DNA of 64,000 bases from an uncultured Eudoraea sp. (GTDB lineage: Bacteria; Bacteroidota; Bacteroidia; Flavobacteriales; Flavobacteriaceae). Of the stretch, positions 9,822 to 36,957 are shown in pieces. Position numbers and translations under genes: made by a program. The DNA lies in the NCBI RefSeq assembly GCF_947260015.1, contig NZ_CAMYOM010000005.1:124001-188000 (forward strand). The letters run 5' to 3'. Under the pieces are notes generated by a model. The model did no database searches and had not been told where the DNA came from. It was given only the letters and a program-made list of their open reading frames with translations. Numbering within the stretch: position 1 is the stretch's first letter; each line of letters opens with the position of its first letter.

Positions 9822-10193
9822 ATGAAACAATTCTTACTTGTTTTTATTGGGGGTGGGTTTGGTAGCTTTCTTCGTTTTATTATTGGCAAAACCTTCAACG
9901 ATTATTTTCATAATTTCTACCTAGGCACATTCCTGGTTAATATTATTGGTTGCCTAATAATTGGTTTTATTCTGGGTACATCAATGAAAGGAAATCTTCT
10001 TTCAAAAGATCAAATCCTGATTCTATCTACCGGCTTTTGCGGTGGATTTACTACTTTTTCAGCATTTACTTTAGAAAATCACGGATTGCTTGAATCCGGT
10101 CAATTACTACACTTTTCATTTTATACTTTAAGTAGTATTACAGTTGGCGTTCTCGCGGTTGTATTGGGACTTTGGCTCTCCAGATTAATATAA
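9822..10193 (+). CDS. crcB: Fluoride ion channel CrcB (Fluc)
   Basis: 123 residues, four membrane helices. Family motifs: GGGFGSFLRFIIG near the N-terminus, the NIIGCLIIGFI helix with its conserved Asn, and STGFCGGFTTFSAFTLE, which contains the TM3 break and the phenylalanines lining the fluoride path. Fluc channels work as antiparallel dimers that expel fluoride. It lies 17 bases after the 59-residue gene, probably in one transcript. No fluoride riboswitch is recognisable upstream. Confidence 0.95.
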   Translation: MKQFLLVFIGGGFGSFLRFIIGKTFNDYFHNFYLGTFLVNIIGCLIIGFILGTSMKGNLLSKDQILILSTGFCGGFTTFSAFTLENHGLLESGQLLHFSFYTLSSITVGVLAVVLGLWLSRLI

Positions 10194-10352
10194 CTACCAC
10201 CGGTATTTAAATGCTATTTACCTTATTAACAGTAATTTATAAACCTCTTCATAATTGAAATAATAAGTAGGTTTTTTGGCTTTCCTACAAATTTAGTTAA
10301 TACTCCCCCACAAAATCATCAAATAAACAAATTATTAACTTTTTAATAGTAT

Positions 10353-10372
10353 ACCCTCAAAATTAAAGGGGT
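10353..10372 (+). promoter_or_regulatory. Distal nitrogen-promoter site, ACCC-N11-GGGGT
   Basis: ACCC (10353-10356), 11 A/T-rich bases, GGGGT (10368-10372), followed by TTTAAT. The same layout occurs at 10405-10424 and at 32469-32488 before the type II glutamine synthetase. Proposed binding site of an unidentified regulator. Confidence 0.5.
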
Positions 10373-10404
10373 TTAATTAAAATTTATATAAAAATTACAT
10401 AACC

Positions 10405-10424
10405 ACCCCAAACTTTTATGGGGT
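10405..10424 (+). promoter_or_regulatory. Proximal nitrogen-promoter site, ACCC-N11-GGGGT
   Basis: ACCC (10405-10408), 11 bases, GGGGT (10420-10424), followed by GTTAAT. It contains the perfect 7-base inverted repeat CACCCCA/TGGGGTG (10404-10410 with 10419-10425). It lies 52 bases after the distal site. Its ACCC ends 33 bases before the -7 box, near -45 relative to the expected start, a position typical of an activator. Confidence 0.55.
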
Positions 10425-10440
10425 GTTAATTATTTTAATA

Positions 10441-10448
10441 TATATTTG
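10441..10448 (+). promoter_or_regulatory. -7 box of glnB-amtB
   Basis: TATATTTG is a perfect TAnnTTTG match 26 bases before the glnB ATG. There is no TTTG at the -33 position, consistent with a promoter that needs an activator. Confidence 0.65.
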
Positions 10449-10473
10449 CCGCGATCAACAATAAAATTTAAAA

Positions 10474-10812
10474 ATGAAAAAAGTTGAAGCAATTATTAGA
10501 AAATCCAAATTTGATGATGTTAAAAAAGCACTTCATGAAATTGAGGTAAATTTCTTTAGTTACTGGGATGTAACTGGAGTAGGAAATGAAAAACAAGGAC
10601 ATGTCTATCGGGGTATTTCATACAGTACCACAGACATCCAAAGAAGGTATCTGGAAATCGTCGTGTCCGATGAATTTCTTGAAAGAACAATAAACACGGT
10701 ACTGGAAGCCGCCTATACAGGAAATGTAGGTGATGGAAAGGTCTTTGTTTCTGATGTCTTACAAGCTTTTCGAATAAGAACCAAGGAAAACGGCCAGGCC
10801 GGAATCAACTAA
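10474..10812 (+). CDS. glnB: Nitrogen regulatory protein PII
   Basis: 112 residues. MKKVEAIIRKSKFDDVKKAL start; T-loop region GNEKQGHVYRGISY, about two residues shorter than the E. coli loop but with its YRG; B-loop TGNVGDGKVFV; C-terminal RIRTKENGQAGI. PII proteins sense ATP/ADP and 2-oxoglutarate and plug the Amt channel when nitrogen is plentiful. The gene is cotranscribed with amtB, 27 bases apart, so it is functionally a GlnK; the symbol glnB is used loosely. Confidence 0.93.
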   Translation: MKKVEAIIRKSKFDDVKKALHEIEVNFFSYWDVTGVGNEKQGHVYRGISYSTTDIQRRYLEIVVSDEFLERTINTVLEAAYTGNVGDGKVFVSDVLQAFRIRTKENGQAGIN

Positions 10813-10839: not shown

Positions 10840-12096
10840 ATGGAAGCAGGATTATTTACAGCTAATAATGTTTGGATGATGGTATGTACCGCCCTTGTAT
10901 TTTTTATGCATACAGGGTTCGCCTTTTTAGAAATTGGCCTCACCAGACAAAAAAACACAATTAATATACTTTTTAAAAACATCTTTATTATTACAGCAGG
11001 ACTACTATTGTATTATATAGGTGGTTTTAATTTAATGTATCCCGGTTTTGAAGAAGGCTCGATGGGTATTTTCGAATTTGCCGGTTTTGGTATTGACCCT
11101 CCGGCAAATGGAATGACAGCTGAATACGCCGATGGAGGTTACACCTGGTGGACAGATTTCTTGTTCCAGGGAATGTTTGCAGCCACAGCGGCAACAATTG
11201 TATCAGGAGCGGTTGCCGAACGTATTAAAATAGGTCCTTTTATGATTTTTACAATCATTTATGTAGGTCTTATATACCCTATAGCCGGTTCCTGGCAATG
11301 GGGTGGCGGATTCCTTTCTTCATTAGGAGGAGAAGAAGGAGGAGGCTTTTATGATTTTGCAGGATCTACTCTGGTACATTCAGTTGGTGGATGGGGAGCT
11401 TTAATAGCAATTTATCTTTTGGGAGCCAGAATAGGCAAATTCAGTAAGGACGGGAAACCAAATGCTATCCCGGGACATAGTATTCCAATGGCTACAGCGG
11501 GCGTTTTAATACTTTGGTTGGGCTGGTTTGGGTTTAACGGTGGCTCTGTTTTATCTGCAGACCCAGCTGCTACATCACTTGTACTTGTGACTACCTGTTT
11601 GGCCGCAGCGGCTGGCGGTATTGCATCCGCAGCATTATCTACAATTATGTATAAGAATATGGACCTAACTATGTTCCTAAACGGAATATTGGGAGGCCTG
11701 GTAGGTATAACAGCAGGTGCTGACCTTATGTCGCCAACCGAGGCAGTAATTATAGGTCTTATAGCTGGTATGATAATTGTCCTTGGTGTGGCTCTAATTG
11801 ATAGGATTCGATTAGATGACCCTGTTGGAGCGGTTACCGTACACCTTATTTGCGGAATCTGGGGAACACTTGCAGTAGGCATATTTGGAGATTTAGCCGG
11901 AGGGCAACAGTTAATATATCAATTAACCGGAATTGCTTCAGTGGGAGTATTCTGCTGTATCTCGGCCTTCATAATCATTTTTGCGCTTAAGAAAACAGTA
12001 GGAATAAGAGTCCCAAAAGAGGAAGAAATAGACGGGCTGGACCTGGCTGAACATGGAATGGATGCTTACGCCGACTTTAGAATGAGTGAACAGTAA
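10840..12096 (+). CDS. amtB: Ammonium transporter AmtB
   Basis: 418 residues, about eleven membrane helices. The pore twin histidines are visible as STLVHSVGGWG (His180) and AVTVHLICGIWG (His335). Other family blocks are FFMHTGFAFLEIGL, GAVAERIK and ILWLGWFGFNGGS. No cleavable signal peptide is apparent; the N-terminus starts with a short exposed stretch. It brings ammonium into the cell under nitrogen limitation and is controlled by the adjacent PII protein. Confidence 0.96.
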   Translation: MEAGLFTANNVWMMVCTALVFFMHTGFAFLEIGLTRQKNTINILFKNIFIITAGLLLYYIGGFNLMYPGFEEGSMGIFEFAGFGIDPPANGMTAEYADGGYTWWTDFLFQGMFAATAATIVSGAVAERIKIGPFMIFTIIYVGLIYPIAGSWQWGGGFLSSLGGEEGGGFYDFAGSTLVHSVGGWGALIAIYLLGARIGKFSKDGKPNAIPGHSIPMATAGVLILWLGWFGFNGGSVLSADPAATSLVLVTTCLAAAAGGIASAALSTIMYKNMDLTMFLNGILGGLVGITAGADLMSPTEAVIIGLIAGMIIVLGVALIDRIRLDDPVGAVTVHLICGIWGTLAVGIFGDLAGGQQLIYQLTGIASVGVFCCISAFIIIFALKKTVGIRVPKEEEIDGLDLAEHGMDAYADFRMSEQ

Positions 12097-12213: not shown

Positions 12214-13356
12214 ATGAAAACATTTACAAATACAAGTTACATAAAAAATTTACTTCTTTTAGCATTGTTATTGCTTGGCAAAGCTTCTTTTGCACAGGAT
12301 GTTGAAGTAATTGTAGTTGAAGAAGAAGAAGAGAAAAAGAAATTCTCTTTTAGTGGATCCGCAGATGGCTACTTCAGGGCAAATTTTAATGGCCTTAACA
12401 AAGTAATACCAGTCGATGCTGGTGGATCTGTTGGACCAACCGCGCCCGGAACTTCATTTGCAAACAGACCTGGTTTTGCACTGGGTATGGTTAATTTAAT
12501 AGGAACTTATGAAGGCAAAAAAGTAGGGGTGGTTGCTGATTTAGTTTTTGGCCCAAGAGGTGAAGAAGCAGTTTTCGGCTCACCGGTTGGCTCTGCAAAT
12601 ATTATTAACCAGCTGTATGTTTACTGGAATGTTAGTGAAAAAACCACTCTAACTTTTGGAAATTTCAACACTTTTCTAGGGTATGAGGTTATCTCGCCTA
12701 CTGGTAACTTTAACTACAGTACTTCCTATATGTTTTCATACGGACCCTTTTCGCATGCCGGTATAAAAGCCGATTTTGATCTTGGGAACGATTGGTCCGC
12801 TATGGTAGCAATTATGAATCCAACCGATTTTACAGATATTAACCCCTTTAGTGAATATACTTTTGGAGCCCAAGTTGGCTATTCCGGTCAATTCTTAAAT
12901 TTTATTTATGGAAAACAAGGTTTCAATGAAACCATTGTTACTGGTGTTCCTACGGATACTGATATTAAAGGACTTTTCCAAATTGACTATACCGGTGGTT
13001 TTGACATAGGTGATTCATTTTTTCTTGGAATAAATGCCACTTACCAGGATACTGATGGCGTTGGTTTTTATGGCGCGGCTTTATATCCTCAATATACCAC
13101 ATCAGATACATTTACTATTGGTTTGAGAGGTGAATATTTTAAAGAAATGGGTGATTTTGGTGCAATTGGAACCGGAGTTGATGATTCCGATGTTTTTGCT
13201 ATAACCCTTTCGGGAAATGTGACAATTGGTGATTACCTCACGTTTATTCCTGAAATAAGATTAGACAGTGCATCTGATGATGCATTTATAAATAATGATT
13301 TAGAAGCATCTAAAAGCCTATCCTCTTTCTTATTGGCTGCTGTATTTGCTTTCTAG
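12214..13356 (+). CDS. Outer-membrane porin linked to the ammonium transporter
   Basis: 380 residues with a signal peptide ending GKASFAQ, a short acidic/basic stretch (VVEEEEEKKK, about residues 33-42) and then repeated amphipathic strands with Gly, Tyr and Phe. The last residues ...SSFLLAAVFAF end in phenylalanine, as expected for outer-membrane insertion. It lies downstream of amtB, separated only by the hairpin at 12111-12138, which suggests that it lets nitrogen compounds cross the outer membrane. The family is a general Gram-negative porin type; substrate unproven. Confidence 0.8.
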   Translation: MKTFTNTSYIKNLLLLALLLLGKASFAQDVEVIVVEEEEEKKKFSFSGSADGYFRANFNGLNKVIPVDAGGSVGPTAPGTSFANRPGFALGMVNLIGTYEGKKVGVVADLVFGPRGEEAVFGSPVGSANIINQLYVYWNVSEKTTLTFGNFNTFLGYEVISPTGNFNYSTSYMFSYGPFSHAGIKADFDLGNDWSAMVAIMNPTDFTDINPFSEYTFGAQVGYSGQFLNFIYGKQGFNETIVTGVPTDTDIKGLFQIDYTGGFDIGDSFFLGINATYQDTDGVGFYGAALYPQYTTSDTFTIGLRGEYFKEMGDFGAIGTGVDDSDVFAITLSGNVTIGDYLTFIPEIRLDSASDDAFINNDLEASKSLSSFLLAAVFAF

Positions 13357-17988: not shown

Positions 17989-18438
17989 TTACTTAAGTCG
18001 CTTTATTGGTGCATCAGAAACCACATCAGACAGAATAATATGTGTCCTGGTTTCCCCATATCTAATGAGTTCATCAATTAATCTTTCAAGATGAGTCTGA
18101 TCCTTTAGAACTACCTCCATTATAATATTCTCATCACCCGTAATCCGGTAACAATTTATAACTTCCTCCAGGGTTTTAACCATCTCAAGAAAAGGTTTCA
18201 ATTTACCCATAAAAGCTCTTAATGTAATAATGGCCTTTAGTTGGTAACCTGCCAGGTTATACGATACTTTCGCATTAAAACCTTCGAGAATTCCGAGGTC
18301 TTCCATTTTTTTGACGCGCTCCGCCACTGCCGGGGGAGTAAGCCCTACTTCCCTTCCAATATTGGACATCGACAGCCTTGAATTCTCTTGCAGAAGTTTA
18401 AGGATGCGCCAGTTTAAGTCATCAATCTTGTTATTCAA
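17989..18438 (-). CDS. Lrp/AsnC-family transcriptional regulator
   Basis: 149 residues: N-terminal winged helix-turn-helix (LDDLNW-like start, LQENSRLSMSNIGREVGLTPPAVAERVKKMED) and a C-terminal RAM domain (ITLRAFMGKLKPFLE, CYRITGDENIIMEVVLKD). Such regulators bind amino acids and form octamers. It diverges from the gene at 18558; its targets are unknown. It is not close to the nitrogen genes. Confidence 0.92.
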   Translation of the reverse strand: MNNKIDDLNWRILKLLQENSRLSMSNIGREVGLTPPAVAERVKKMEDLGILEGFNAKVSYNLAGYQLKAIITLRAFMGKLKPFLEMVKTLEEVINCYRITGDENIIMEVVLKDQTHLERLIDELIRYGETRTHIILSDVVSDAPIKRLK

Positions 18439-30201: not shown

Positions 30202-32388
30202 TTATTTAATAAACAATAGTTCCCGGTATTTTGTCAGCGGCCATGACTGATCTTCAATTAGTTGCTCCAGCTTATCGCAATGATATCTGATTTTATCAAA
30301 ATAGGGCCGAACATTATCGCTGTAAGCAAAAGCTTTCTTATTCAGGTCCTTTAAATTGTTTGCGATTTTTCTGGCATTGGTCATATCATCGGTATTCTTT
30401 TTTAATTCAACCATATGCTCTGCAATCTGTTCAATAAGAGTAAGATGACCTTCAGATAATTTTTTATGTGCCGCTCCATAAATCTCTTTTAAGCCCAGAA
30501 CATTTTTAATTAACTTATTTTGGTATTCAATAGCCGAAGGAATAATATGGCTATAAACCAAATCATTAAAGACCCTGCCATCAATTTGGGTGTGAAGAAT
30601 ATAAGTCTCTAATTCAACCTCTTGCCGCGCTTCAACTTCTATTGTACTCATTACTTCCAGGCTATTAAAAAGTTCCAGACTTTCTTTGGAAGTCATAACC
30701 TGAATCGCGGAAGGAGTGGTTTTGTTATTACTCAACTTCCTTTTTTTTGCTTCTTTTTCCCATTCAGCACTATAACCATCACCGTCGAAACGAATTCTTT
30801 TGGAAGACTTGATATATTCTCTTAATACATTAAAAACCGCTTCGTCCTTTTTTAATTTCTTTTTATTAATTAAAACATCTACTTCCTTTTTAAATGCCCT
30901 TAATTGATTTGCTACAATAGTGTTTAGAATGGTCATTGGTTTTGCACAATTGGTTTTTGAACCAACCCCTCTCATTTCAAATTTATTCCCTGTAAAGGCA
31001 AAAGGCGAGGTGCGATTTCTATCTGTATTATCGAGTAAAATCTCAGGAATTTTTCCTACTACATTGAGTTTTAATTCCGTTTTCTCTTCCGGGGAAAGCT
31101 TTCCTTTGGAAACCCCTTCCAATTCATCCAATACATTACTTAGTTGTGTACCTATAAAGATTGAAAAAATAGCGGGTGGAGCTTCATTTGCGCCCAGCCT
31201 GTAATCATTACTGGCAGAAGCAATTGAAGACCTTAACAGTTCCTCATAAGTATCTACAGCTTTAATTGTATTCACAAAAAAGGTTAGAAATTGCAGGTTT
31301 TTCATGGGTGTTGAACCCGGGCTTAAAAGGTTTACCCCAGTATCTGTTGCCAGAGACCAATTGTTGTGTTTCCCTGATCCGTTGATTCGGGCAAATGGTT
31401 TTTCATGAAAAAGGACTTTAAAATTATGCCTATCCGCTACCTTTTCCATAATATCCATTAGAAGCAAATTATGATCAACCGCCAGGTTTGCTTCCTCAAA
31501 AATCGTAGCCAACTCAAATTGATTTGGTGCTACTTCATTATGCCTGGTTTTAACAGGAATCCCCAGACGAGTACATTCTTTTTCCAGATCTCGCATAAAA
31601 TTAATGGCCCTTAAAGGTATTACACCGAAATAATGATCATCCAGTTGTTGCCCTTTAGCAGCCAAGTGTCCAACAAGTGTACGTCCGGTAAGAACCAAAT
31701 CAGGCCGCGAACTAGCCAATGCTTTATCAATTAGAAAATACTCTTGTTCCCACCCCAGTGTTGCGTGGACCTTGGAGACATTTTTATCAAAATATTTAGC
31801 AATGGCGGTAGCCGCTATATCTACCGCATGTAATGCTCGTAATAGTGGAGCTTTATTATCAAGGGCCTCACCAGTATAGGAAACAAAAATTGTGGGAATA
31901 CAAAGTGTCGTACCATAAATAAATGCCGGTGAGGTTGGATCCCAAGCCGTATAACCTCTTGCCTCAAAGGTATTTCGTATACCTCCGCTTGGGAAACTAG
32001 ATGCATCTGGCTCTTGTTGTACAAGCTGAGCACCCCCAAATTTTTCCACAGCTCTTCCATCTGCTAACAAATCAAAAAAAGCATCATGCTTCTCTGCCGT
32101 AGCTCCCGTTAAAGGCTGAAACCAATGAGTGTAGTGTGTTGCACCCATACTGATAGCCCATGCTTTCATTGCTTCCGCGACCTGATCGGCTATTTTTCTA
32201 TCAATTTTGGAGCCTGAAAAAATAGCCCCTTTTACACTTAAAAGAGCATCCTTCGTAAGATACTGCAGCATTCTTTCTTCATTAAAAACATGGGTTCCGA
32301 AAAATTCTGATCGCCGCCCTGTTTCTGTAATGGGTAGCGGTTTATGTTGGTAACTTTCAGTAATTGCATTGAATCTTAATCTGGACAT
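30202..32388 (-). CDS. glnN: Type III glutamine synthetase
   Basis: 728 residues, the normal size for GSIII. The type-specific start (FNAITESYQHKPLPITETGR) is followed by QEYFLID, RTLVGHLAAKGQQLDDHYFG, VKTRHNEVAPNQFELATIFE (substrate and metal glutamates), INGSGKHNNWSLATDTGVNL and DNTDRNRTSPFAFTGNKFEMR. It makes glutamine from glutamate, ammonia and ATP. It diverges from a second, type II synthetase, sharing a 210-base control region. Confidence 0.96.
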   Translation of the reverse strand: MSRLRFNAITESYQHKPLPITETGRRSEFFGTHVFNEERMLQYLTKDALLSVKGAIFSGSKIDRKIADQVAEAMKAWAISMGATHYTHWFQPLTGATAEKHDAFFDLLADGRAVEKFGGAQLVQQEPDASSFPSGGIRNTFEARGYTAWDPTSPAFIYGTTLCIPTIFVSYTGEALDNKAPLLRALHAVDIAATAIAKYFDKNVSKVHATLGWEQEYFLIDKALASSRPDLVLTGRTLVGHLAAKGQQLDDHYFGVIPLRAINFMRDLEKECTRLGIPVKTRHNEVAPNQFELATIFEEANLAVDHNLLLMDIMEKVADRHNFKVLFHEKPFARINGSGKHNNWSLATDTGVNLLSPGSTPMKNLQFLTFFVNTIKAVDTYEELLRSSIASASNDYRLGANEAPPAIFSIFIGTQLSNVLDELEGVSKGKLSPEEKTELKLNVVGKIPEILLDNTDRNRTSPFAFTGNKFEMRGVGSKTNCAKPMTILNTIVANQLRAFKKEVDVLINKKKLKKDEAVFNVLREYIKSSKRIRFDGDGYSAEWEKEAKKRKLSNNKTTPSAIQVMTSKESLELFNSLEVMSTIEVEARQEVELETYILHTQIDGRVFNDLVYSHIIPSAIEYQNKLIKNVLGLKEIYGAAHKKLSEGHLTLIEQIAEHMVELKKNTDDMTNARKIANNLKDLNKKAFAYSDNVRPYFDKIRYHCDKLEQLIEDQSWPLTKYRELLFIK

Positions 32389-32415: not shown

Positions 32416-32423
32416 CAAAATTA
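32416..32423 (-). promoter_or_regulatory. -7 box of glnN
   Basis: On the minus strand TAATTTTG matches TAnnTTTG, 27 bases before the glnN start codon. No clear TTTG lies 19-21 bases upstream. Confidence 0.5.
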
Positions 32424-32468: not shown

Positions 32469-32488
32469 ACCCTTAAAAAAATAGGGGT
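32469..32488 (+). promoter_or_regulatory. Distal site ACCC-N11-GGGGT between the two glutamine synthetase genes
   Basis: ACCC (32469-32472), 11 bases, GGGGT (32484-32488), followed by GTTGAT. Extended agreement with the glnB distal site: ATACCCT-YAAAA at the left and AGGGGT-KTT-RAT at the right. It is also 61 bases from the glnN -7 box and so could serve both genes. Confidence 0.5.
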
Positions 32489-32489
32489 G

Positions 32490-32534
32490 TTGATAAATAT
32501 GTCTAATTTTTTGATAAATACCCCTAGTTTTTTA
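32490..32534 (+). promoter_or_regulatory. Direct repeats and proximal half site before glnII
   Basis: TTGATAAATA occurs twice, at 32490-32499 and 32511-32520, exactly 21 bases (two helical turns) apart. The second copy runs into ACCC (32520-32523), a half site whose GGGGT partner is missing. This ACCC ends 33 bases before the -7 box, the same distance as at glnB, and lies 51 bases after the distal ACCC. Confidence 0.45.
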
Positions 32535-32555
32535 ATAGATGTGTTCAAAATAATT

Positions 32556-32563
32556 TATTTTTG
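32556..32563 (+). promoter_or_regulatory. -7 box of the type II glutamine synthetase gene
   Basis: TATTTTTG is a TAnnTTTG match 35 bases before the ATG. There is no TTTG at the -33 position, as at glnB. Confidence 0.6.
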
Positions 32564-32598: not shown

Positions 32599-33624
32599 AT
32601 GAGCAAGAGTAAATTAGAATACATTTGGCTGGATGGGCACGAACCAACGCAAGAATTAAGAAGTAAAACCAAGATTGAAGAAGACTTCAGTGGTAAATTG
32701 GAAGATTGCCCTTTATGGTCTTTTGATGGAAGTTCCACAGAGCAAGCCGAAGGCGGTTCTTCAGATTGTCTTTTGAAGCCGGTAGCTATTTATCCCGATC
32801 CGGAAAGAGCTGGTGGGTTTTTGGTAATGGCAGAAGTGTTAAATGCAGATGGCACAGCGCATTCATCTAATCATCGTGCTCAAATTGATGATGATGATAA
32901 TGACTTCTGGTTCGGATTTGAACAGGAATACTTTTTAATGGATACTGAAACGGATCTACCTCTTGGGTTTCCACGTGGTGGATTTCCAGGACCTCAAGGT
33001 AAATATTACTGCTCCGTAGGTGGAAGGTACACCTGGGGGAGAGAATTTGTAGAAGAGCATATGGATCTGTGTATCGCGGCTGGAATTAATTTCGAGGGTA
33101 TAAACCAGGAAGTTGCACCAGGACAATGGGAATTTCAGTGTTTTGCCAAAGGCGCTAAAAAAGCGGGTGATGAGATCTGGGTAGCACGTTATCTATTGAA
33201 TCGCCTTTCTGAAAAATATGGCTATTACATAGAATTACATCCAAAACCTGTTAAAGGCGATTGGAATGGTAGCGGAATGCATGCAAACTTTTCTAATACT
33301 ACTTTAAGAACATGTGGTTCTAAAGAAATATATGAAAGAATTTGTGAGGCCTTCAGACCTGTGGCTAGTGATCATATAGACGTTTATGGTGCTTTTAATG
33401 ACGAAAGACTTACCGGCCTGCACGAAACGGCATCTATTAAGGATTTCAGTTATGGGGTATCAGACAGAGGTGCTTCAATCCGAATTCCGATCATAACCGT
33501 TGAAAGAGGGTGGAAAGGATGGCTGGAAGACAGGAGACCTGCTTCTAATGGTGACCCATACAAGATTGCAGGAAGAATTATTAAAACTGTAAAGTCTGCA
33601 AAAATAGAAGCAGTAGCTAATTAA
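32599..33624 (+). CDS. glnII: Type II (eukaryote-like) glutamine synthetase
   Basis: 341 residues, the short GSII form. It begins MSKSKLEYIWLDGHEPTQEL, has the WSFDGSSTEQAEGGSSDC beta-grasp block, FGFEQEYFLMD, GINQEVAPGQWEFQ, NGSGMHANFS and RGASIRIPI. GSII enzymes are decamers and are not adenylylated by GlnE, so control is likely at transcription. It is divergent from the GSIII gene; both promoters face a shared region with the ACCC/GGGGT sites. Confidence 0.94.
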   Translation: MSKSKLEYIWLDGHEPTQELRSKTKIEEDFSGKLEDCPLWSFDGSSTEQAEGGSSDCLLKPVAIYPDPERAGGFLVMAEVLNADGTAHSSNHRAQIDDDDNDFWFGFEQEYFLMDTETDLPLGFPRGGFPGPQGKYYCSVGGRYTWGREFVEEHMDLCIAAGINFEGINQEVAPGQWEFQCFAKGAKKAGDEIWVARYLLNRLSEKYGYYIELHPKPVKGDWNGSGMHANFSNTTLRTCGSKEIYERICEAFRPVASDHIDVYGAFNDERLTGLHETASIKDFSYGVSDRGASIRIPIITVERGWKGWLEDRRPASNGDPYKIAGRIIKTVKSAKIEAVAN

Positions 33625-34882: not shown

Positions 34883-34902
34883 AATTAATAGTAATATGTT
34901 TG
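34871..34902 (+). promoter_or_regulatory. Promoter of the BlaI/M56 pair
   Basis: GTTG (34871-34874, one base from TTTG), 20-base spacer, TATGTTTG (34895-34902). The -33 element is inside the dyad. Start of transcription near 34909 excludes the ATG-less 34900 start and supports the ATG at 34921. Confidence 0.65.
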
Positions 34903-34920
34903 ATTAAAATTAATTGCATC

Positions 34921-35280
34921 ATGCAGAGACTCACCAATAAGGAAGAGGAAATAATGAAAATCCTCTGGAGATTAGAAAAGGCATTTGTAAAGGAAATCAG
35001 GGCCGAATTGAAGGGAGACAAGCCCCATTATAATACCTTATCAACTATAGTGCGTAAGCTGGAGGAGAAAAATTACGTTTCGCATGAAGCATTTGGAAAT
35101 ACCCATCGCTATTATCCTTTGGTCACAAAAGAAGATTACAGAAAACGCTTTATCTCTAACACTCTTGTGGATTATTATGACAATTCCTATAAAAGCATGG
35201 TGTCTTTTTTTGCAAAGGAGCAAAAAATATCCATTGAGGAACTCAGGGAAATTATAAAACTAATTGAAAAAGAAAACTAG
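34921..35280 (+). CDS. BlaI/MecI-family repressor
   Basis: 119 residues from the ATG at 34921 (MQRLTNKEEEIMKILWRLEK). Winged-helix DNA-binding domain (1-75: VKEIRAELKGDKPHYNTLST, YVSHEAFGNTHRYYPLV) and a C-terminal helical dimerisation part (ISNTLVDYYDNSYKSMVSFF). Such repressors are released when the partner sensor protease is triggered. The next gene starts directly after its stop (TAG-ATG, no gap). Confidence 0.93.
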   Translation: MQRLTNKEEEIMKILWRLEKAFVKEIRAELKGDKPHYNTLSTIVRKLEEKNYVSHEAFGNTHRYYPLVTKEDYRKRFISNTLVDYYDNSYKSMVSFFAKEQKISIEELREIIKLIEKEN

Positions 35281-36957
35281 ATGGAAGCATTATTGATTTA
35301 CCTTTTAAAAGCCTCGGGAATACTTATTCTATTTTATTTAGTCTACCAGGTATTTCTAAAAAAGGAAACCTTTTTCCGGGTTAACCGCCATTTTTTACTC
35401 ATCGGGGTAATTGCTGCCTTTGTTTGTCCTTTTATCGTTATTAATAATTATGTGGAAATTACAGCGACTCCTTTTACTACTCCTAATTCCTCAGCTGTAA
35501 ATTCCTCTTTTGAGACAAGTCAGCCCTTAATTAATTGGTTGGATTTAATTTATACAGTATACGGTATAGGCATGCTTATACTAGGACTCAAGTTTATTCT
35601 CCAAATCTTTGCCATAAGGAAAGTGATTCACTCAAACAAAATCATTAAAAAGGATGGTTACAATTATATAGAAACTGATAAGGACATTGCCCCTTTTTCA
35701 TTTTTCAGGTATATTTTTTATAACCCAGACAAATTTGAGGCCCTGGAACTTGAAGCAATTTTAAAACACGAACGTGCGCATAGTTGCCAGCAGCATTCTC
35801 TGGACTTACTGATAGCCCATCTGGTTACCATTGTTATGTGGGCAAACCCTTTTAGTTGGCTATACAAAAAAAATATTGAACAAAATCTTGAGTTTTTAGC
35901 AGACGATACGGCTATACAAAGTGTTGTCTCAGGCAAAGCATATAAATACGCTTTACTCAAAGTATCCGGAAATCAATTTTTTACACCAATCACAAATAAT
36001 TTTTACAGTTCATTAATCAAAAAACGAATGGTCATGTTACACAAATCAAAATCACACAAAAGAAACTTACTTAAAATGGCACTAATCCTGCCTGCCTTAG
36101 CAATTTTTCTCTTAAGTTTTAACACGCATACGATCTACGTGCCGAAGACAGCACAGGGTTCTGCTATTATGGTTGCAGAAAGTCTTAAAACCATTGATAT
36201 CCTAATAAATAAGGATACCACAAATGAAGAACTGGAGGAACTTAAAAAAGATCTTTCAGCCAAAGGAATAGATTTCTCTTACACGGCAGTACGTAATGAT
36301 AAGAAGGAGATTATAAATATCGAAATTGATATGCGCTCTAAGAAGAAGGACGGCAAAAAATTAAGAGGTTCCTCTTCATTCGACAATGATGGAAAACCCA
36401 TTGATCCCATAACTATTGTTTTTGACGAAGATAACAACTCCTTTTTTATGGGTGATAATAAGTCAAAACACAAGATTATACATAAAGAAACTGATGTTAA
36501 CACCTGGGTTTACAACGATGATGAGGAACATAAGCTTGTTGAAATAAAAATAGATGATGGCAAGGAAATAATTATTGTAAATGGCAAAGAAGTTTCACGC
36601 GAAGCCTTTGAAGAGATGGAGGAAGAAGACAAGGTGCATAGTAAACATGTTCGGATAGAGAAAAAGAGCTCATCTGGTGGACATACCAAGGTATTTATAG
36701 TTAAGGATACAGATGATGAAGATGATATTGAAGTAATTAGTGAAAATGGTAATGGATTTTTCTTTATTGATACTGATGAAGATGAAGATCAACTTTATAT
36801 TATTGACGGAAAAGAAGGCAGTAAAGAAGATGTTAAATCTTTATCCCCCAATAAGATTGCAACCATAGATGTTTACAAAGGTGATAAGGCGGTTGAAAAG
36901 TATGGAAAAAAAGCAAAAGATGGGGTAATAGTAATTAAAACCAAAAAAGAGAACTAA
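35281..36957 (+). CDS. BlaR1/MecR1-like M56 membrane metalloprotease
   Basis: 558 residues. Several membrane helices in the first 115 residues, then the zinc protease motif HERAH (163-167) with the third ligand region EFLADD (about 204), another helix near 270, and a long periplasmic tail. There is no penicillin-binding domain; the tail is instead very acidic and lysine-rich (390-510) and ends with YIIDGKEGSKEDVKSLSPNK, then VEKYGKKAKDGVIVIKTKK. That ending resembles a TonB-plug beta motif and is common in Bacteroidota M56 proteins. It should sense an envelope signal and inactivate the upstream repressor. Confidence 0.9.
   Translation: MEALLIYLLKASGILILFYLVYQVFLKKETFFRVNRHFLLIGVIAAFVCPFIVINNYVEITATPFTTPNSSAVNSSFETSQPLINWLDLIYTVYGIGMLILGLKFILQIFAIRKVIHSNKIIKKDGYNYIETDKDIAPFSFFRYIFYNPDKFEALELEAILKHERAHSCQQHSLDLLIAHLVTIVMWANPFSWLYKKNIEQNLEFLADDTAIQSVVSGKAYKYALLKVSGNQFFTPITNNFYSSLIKKRMVMLHKSKSHKRNLLKMALILPALAIFLLSFNTHTIYVPKTAQGSAIMVAESLKTIDILINKDTTNEELEELKKDLSAKGIDFSYTAVRNDKKEIINIEIDMRSKKKDGKKLRGSSSFDNDGKPIDPITIVFDEDNNSFFMGDNKSKHKIIHKETDVNTWVYNDDEEHKLVEIKIDDGKEIIIVNGKEVSREAFEEMEEEDKVHSKHVRIEKKSSSGGHTKVFIVKDTDDEDDIEVISENGNGFFFIDTDEDEDQLYIIDGKEGSKEDVKSLSPNKIATIDVYKGDKAVEKYGKKAKDGVIVIKTKKEN

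Follow-up and report, generated by a model that had tools for sequence, protein, structure and literature searches.

How do Bacteroidota switch the genes with which they assimilate nitrogen? No established system of transcriptional nitrogen control in this phylum is known to us, and the question is raised by a stretch of 64,000 nucleotides (the window) from a 3.42-Mb genome of 98 contigs, in which paired sites of one type stand before glnB-amtB and between two glutamine synthetase (GS) genes. We think it likely that these sites form the operator of a Bacteroidota nitrogen-control regulon, on whose paired palindromes a dimeric activator would bind, a reading reached without expression or binding data.

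Paired palindromes at two promoters of the window

The first promoter precedes glnB/glnK for a PII protein of 112 aa (10474..10812, + strand; Pfam P-II, 3.6e-22), which is followed on the same strand by amtB for an ammonium transporter of 418 aa (10840..12096; Pfam Ammonium_transp, 3.5e-111) and a gene for a BBP2 (OmpL-like) beta-barrel porin (12214..13356; Pfam PF07642, 1.7e-67). The first-pass annotation had reported two copies of ACCC-N11-GGGGT here, 52 bp apart, and both proved exact: the outer site, ACCCTCAAAATTAAAGGGGT, at 10353..10372 (+), which is kept in relatives, and the inner site, ACCCCAAACTTTTATGGGGT, at 10405..10424 (+), which matches exactly on both strands. A -7 box read from the sequence, TATATTTG (TAnnTTTG), lies at 10441..10448 (+) without a -33 TTTG, and the inner site covers the place of a -33 box. 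With the -7 box at this position, the inner ACCC (10405-10408) ends 33 bases before it, again as annotated; from start to start the distance is 36 bp.

The sites are thus real, but ACCC-N11-GGGGT reads the palindrome slightly out of register; the unit is better written as the 20-bp ACCCY-N10-RGGGT and equally as ACCC-N12-GGGT with a spacer of mostly 11-13. Among 53 promoters, the ACCC-to-GGGT spacer was 12 in 54 sites, 13 in 19, 11 in 16 and 14 in 1; the middle CC and GG positions were 95-98% conserved around an A/T centre, in promoters that had been picked by a score rewarding these same letters. TAAAA[AG]T is a third conserved element besides the two palindromes, and the score did not reward it. 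Of 57 distinct promoters, 41 have it starting 16-17 bp 5' of the inner ACCC and one has it at 23 bp; the other 15 lack it. In the glnB-amtB promoter it is ATAAAAAT at 10388..10395 (+), between the two sites, where we propose an (UP-like) contact of the alpha C-terminal domain of RNA polymerase, a function that is inferred; it is not present at the window's glnII.

The second promoter region separates glnII, encoding a type II glutamine synthetase of 341 aa (32599..33624, +; Pfam Gln-synt_C/N; NCBIfam GlnII at 4.1e-119, under its curated cut-off), from a divergent gene for a type III enzyme (GSIII) of 728 aa (30202..32388, -; Pfam GSIII_N, 2.7e-76). An exact site at 32469..32488 (+) is the outer one for glnII and the nearer one for GSIII, and the inner site of glnII, ACCCCTAGTTTTTTAATAGA at 32520..32539 (+), has a good left half ACCCC and a degenerate right half; their ACCC starts are 51 bp apart. 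The -7 box of glnII, TATTTTTG at 32556..32563 (+), begins 36 bp from the inner ACCC start. The layout is the one seen at glnB-amtB, as the first-pass annotation held, although the second copy is half degenerate. On the GSIII side only a weak candidate box, TAATTTTG at 32416..32423 (-), was seen, 65 bp from the nearer site. Also adjoining glnII, at 34900-36957, are genes for a BlaI/MecI-like regulator and a BlaR1-like M56 peptidase, both named from sequence reading; BlaI-like genes lie near GS genes in three other genomes as well (loci L236, L239 and L241).

Of the divergent GSII/GSIII regions, 13 could be delimited; loci with GS genes where this was impossible, L107 among them, were left out. 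The site spacing was 51-53 bp in all 13. On the GSII side, 11 of them have a TAnnTTTR box at 34-36 bp from the inner ACCC, downstream of it; on the GSIII side the distance from site to box varied. As 12 of the 13 had been fetched via the pair pattern or the sequence model described below, their spacing is partly selected. The parallel between glnB and glnII nevertheless recurs in other genomes and is no coincidence of the window.

Recurrence, gene set and taxonomic spread of the operator

A lone site says little. The window holds 15 single sites with at most one mismatch against 7.04 expected, a number that was reached in 2 of 100 shuffles, and ACCC-N-W10-N-GGGT occurred 29 times in 40 relatives against 15 times for a reversed control. 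Nineteen of these 29 were at nitrogen genes (alanine dehydrogenase, ald, in five genomes) and 10 elsewhere. Since single sites are so little above background, we treat one alone as weak evidence and the pair as strong, and single sites were rejected as regulon markers on account of this noise. The exact pair pattern, by contrast, was found in 22 of 397 genomes of the family (the window's own included) against 1 for the reversed control, and so is not a product of chance. All 22 loci were at glnB-amtB, at porin operons (often beside or divergent from gltB) or at GSII/GSIII.

Promoters gathered by amtB homology and not by motif gave the same picture. An amtB match was present in 109 of 149 family genomes, and 70 loci (30 and then 40 more) were compared. 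With a score of fixed spacing, paired sites were found at 48 of the 70, so not at all of them, either before glnB or farther upstream, ahead of the porin or of a second amtB. When the spacing was left free, two strong sites were detected in 28 of 69 glnB and 21 of 55 porin upstream regions, and by our scoring they stood 52-54 bp apart in 26 of the 28 and in 21 of the 21, respectively. Markov shuffles of the same regions reached the score in 8 of 2480 cases, none at 51-53 bp; when this was repeated, 7 of 4960 did so, none with a spacing of 50-55 bp. Absence from orthologous promoters or equal frequency in random DNA would have refuted the first-pass proposal; the motif is present in the former, and the pair was not found at random places. 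In the 47 promoters that passed, 32 exact TAnnTTTG boxes start 34-37 bp 3' of the inner ACCC and 2 elsewhere in 230 bp; a TTTG 17-28 bp upstream of the box (-33 region) occurs in only one.

A strict pattern consisting of both sites and the middle TAAAAAT was searched in a genome-contig collection that covers 84,980 species by its description and from which records very near the window were possibly excluded. It returned 40 loci, all from Bacteroidota by title, either Flavobacteriales genera or other Bacteroidota, Carboxylicivirga included; some of these genomes also figured in our other searches. Automatic assignment placed 38 of the 40 at glnB/amtB/porin/gltB/GSIII. Inspection by hand added an OMP-glnB-amtB operon (L412), making 39 of 40 at genes of the nitrogen set, and left one contig end within a crcB-MazG-ilvE synteny like that of the window (L396).

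We further trained a sequence model, R1, on 60 amtB-locus promoters (those of glnB, the porin and a second amtB); GS and ald promoters did not enter it. In the window's own genome it ranked glnB-amtB first (1.5e-18) and the GSII/GSIII region next (5.5e-6 and 1.4e-5). The genes at five weak matches were examined: C43:5338 (E 0.037) lies upstream of gltB, C20:1115 and C1:251497 lie within genes, and C20:76727 and C44:4794 beside genes outside the nitrogen set; other returned loci were checked only for nitrogen proteins. At E<=1e-4, R1 matched 105 of 149 family genomes, where many of the amtB matches belonged to its training set. The other 44 had no match at this threshold, and some of them keep amtB (G002, G004, G020, G064, G065). 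The independent evidence comes from 24 non-amtB matches chosen among the matches listed: 17 were at GSII/GSIII, 3 at ald and 2 at gltB, one of the latter beside a porin as in the training set; two (L228 and L234) were not at nitrogen genes.

At class level, matches with E<=0.1 occurred in 227 of 295 genomes, so most of them must be noise. The 29 new loci returned comprised 16 with glnB/amtB/porin/GSII/GSIII/gltB in the 3-kb stretch and 13 without, and the nine lowest E-values all fell at nitrogen genes. The window's family accounts for five of the 16; the remaining 11, all at GSIII or amtB, come from eight other families. By eye, the sites are closer to the -7 box in several of the loci outside the family; because of this, the exact layout may be a feature of Flavobacteriaceae and the half-site older.

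As directly observed, then, the operator is common to several unlinked nitrogen-assimilation operons, namely glnB-amtB, the porin, GSII, GSIII, gltB and ald. The paired sites that the first-pass annotation took for those of a flavobacterial nitrogen activator have a layout conserved across Flavobacteriaceae, with related sites in other Bacteroidia; activation itself has not been shown. The fixed geometry of the operator makes it a bait for purifying the regulator and allows the genes of the regulon to be predicted in many genomes, and the operator offers a natural promoter for nitrogen-switched expression in flavobacteria.

The porin deserves mention among these genes. A homologue was found in 37 of 64 compared loci, and in many relatives it comes immediately after the paired sites and ahead of glnB or amtB, in many cases with gltB divergent from it. 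The operator makes a part in nitrogen uptake likely for the BBP2 porin, through which ammonium or small nitrogen compounds probably cross the outer membrane. In several genomes (G017, G044, G121 and G132 among them) a second amtB, about 45-52% identical to that of the window, adjoins the first, and one double-amtB locus, in G123, contains two paired-site promoters (L058:950-1051 and L058:3526-3627).

Proposed mechanism and candidate regulators

Motif, spacing and promoter box are read directly from the DNA; activation, the docking of the alpha C-terminal domain and the exact distances from the transcription start are inferred, and for the nitrogen signal the inference rests on nothing but the gene set. 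We suggest that a dimeric DNA-binding protein, probably activated by nitrogen shortage, would bind the two 20-bp palindromes. Since 51-54 bp amount to five helical turns, both dimers would face the same side of the helix. The inner dimer, centred at about -38 to -41 from the likely start, would cover the place of the missing -33 box and touch sigma and/or the alpha subunit of RNA polymerase, and the outer one (about -90 to -93) would strengthen recruitment of the polymerase, whose alpha C-terminal domain may dock on the A-tract between the sites. Switched on in this way would be uptake by PII/AmtB, the BBP2 outer-membrane porin, both glutamine synthetases, glutamate synthase and, in some species, alanine dehydrogenase.

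Which protein binds is left open. A literature search agreed with the first-pass annotation in finding no described regulator with this motif; neither the operator nor a Bacteroidota nitrogen regulator was found described in the full-text literature, where subscription papers were mostly not covered. Apart from BlaI-like genes in three loci, no conserved transcription-factor neighbour was visible by eye in the ORF clusters of 64 loci, single-member clusters excluded, or in those of the 40 strict-pattern loci (34 clusters in fewer than three loci excluded). MerR, LuxR, CRP and Lrp proteins were each tried, other families being outside the comparison, and none fits alone: CRP and LuxR types are missing, at the cut-off used, in one genome with the motif, and MerR and Lrp types persist where it is not found.

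CRP promoters that bind two dimers have their site centres near -41 and -93, as here, and lux boxes, too, are 20 bp long and begin with ACC. It is on these grounds conceivable, though improbable, that an NtcA-like activator of the CRP/FNR family or a LuxR/NarL-type regulator binds the sites. A gene for a cNMP-binding (CRP-like) protein lies directly downstream of the paired-operator GSIII gene in Flavobacteriales bacterium UBA2104 (L390:7491-8000), but its product has a single weak match (22%) among the compared loci. A CRP-type HTH exceeded the cut-off in 10 of 12 motif-positive genomes and GerE proteins did so in 11. The exception to both is G052, a genome 90% complete with a strong R1 match (E 1.6e-14), which has no HTH_Crp_2 and nothing better than 20.9 bits for GerE; G139 (86% complete) has only a sub-cut-off CRP-type HTH. 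Moreover, the half-sites are separated by 15 bp, measured between their middle bases, and the spacer ranges from 11 to 13; a CRP site is unlike such an arrangement.

The same promoter geometry could in principle serve repression, with transcription blocked when nitrogen is plentiful and the two sites used for looping or binding of a tetramer. The inner site overlaps the -33 place, so that a bound protein could hinder the polymerase, and two phased sites also suit co-operative repressors. However, the promoters look weak without help because the -33 TTTG is missing (one in 47 has it), about 14-17 bp are left between the end of the 20-bp inner site and the -7 box, and a fixed five-turn spacing with an A-tract between the sites resembles activator promoters. 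We regard a paired repressor operator as unlikely.

For a short MerR protein of about 110 aa (MliR), acting like TnrA/GlnR of Bacillus, one can point to ACC-N14-GGT, which matches the outer bases of MerR-family palindromes, and to the presence of such a protein in all 32 genomes examined, among them those small motif-positive genomes that were tested. GlnR (E 0.03) and TnrA (0.16) are among the PDB matches of the protein from the window's genome, behind metal and other MerR regulators. It appears to be MliR, as judged from its 109 aa and from the agreement of the residues named for MliR (L5, K8, Y11, E15, A19, F20; PMC9478572, accessible part), although full sequences were not compared and only part of the MerR loci rows were usable for the residue reading. 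Deletion of mliR in Bizionia argentinensis, as far as the accessible part of that report tells, mainly lowered iron-uptake genes; the top genes named there include asparagine synthetase B and D-serine dehydratase, and amtB or glutamine synthetase are not among the genes named for growth in marine broth, the supplement excluded (PMC9478572). The protein is, besides, equally present in 16 of 16 genomes without an R1 match and in 16 of 16 motif-positive ones, and we give it little chance of being the regulator.

The prospects of a widespread Lrp/AsnC-family protein seem just as slender. Elsewhere, nitrogen genes are under the control of proteins of this family that use AT-rich palindromes and phased sites, and 1-6 copies were present in 20 of 20 genomes, one of them in the window (17989-18438). 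Against this, the window copy stands apart from 29 other copies in a tree, several small motif-positive genomes have only two copies (not classed singly), and copies persist in all six searched genomes without an R1 match. As to position, the window's gene lies 4.6 kb from the porin. In G103, G126 and G064, PF01037 matches are no more than 5 kb away from amtB, and in G046 a distance of about 6 kb separates them from GSII/GSIII.

Control by sigma-54/NtrC can be set aside for the two promoters, since, as the first-pass annotation had noted, neither the region before glnB nor the stretch between the GS genes has a -24/-12 box on either strand (best match with 4 of 11 mismatches, no GG-N10-GC), and for a structured RNA there was no Rfam match at E<=1 in 10190-10480. 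In the accessible part of one survey, glutamine synthetase is assigned to sigma-54 mainly in Pseudomonadota (PMC12316311).

Comparison with known regulatory systems

Among described flavobacterial proteins, MliR of Bizionia argentinensis is likewise a short MerR-like protein that its authors compared with TnrA/GlnR, but the role reported for it is iron homeostasis, and no link to nitrogen assimilation was found in the accessible part of the report (PMC9478572). For the preferred reading, a dimeric activator on paired palindromes, the architecture of CRP promoters holds: the spacing of 51-54 bp corresponds to whole turns, and a -33 TTTG occurs in 1/47. As at promoters of E. coli with two CRP dimers, the dimer sites are about 52 bp apart, the inner one replaces the upstream box and an A-tract lies between them. 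In E. coli these sites are centred at about -41.5 and -93.5, and the position of the A-tract is the seat of the alpha C-terminal domain. In contrast to CRP, the half-site here is ACCCC/GGGGT, not TGTGA, half-sites are 15 instead of 11 bp apart, and no CRP-type HTH was found in one motif-bearing genome.

The gene set resembles that of the NtcA (cyanobacteria)/NtrC, GlnR, TnrA and AmtR regulons, where likewise one palindromic operator stands before the genes for PII, ammonium transporter, glutamine synthetase and glutamate synthase. The consensus sites of these regulators (GTA-N8-TAC, TGCACC-N5-GGTGCA, TGTNA-N7-TNACA) match neither the sequence nor the spacing of the operator described here, and the promoter differs from theirs in being of the Bacteroidota -7 type, without sigma-54 boxes. 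Whether Bacteroidota thus possess a master nitrogen regulator of their own seems to us evenly balanced: it would be an unrecognised protein with an operator unlike those of NtrC, NtcA, GlnR/TnrA and AmtR, would predate the split of the Bacteroidia families, and would use paired palindromes in place of the -33 box of the primary sigma factor.
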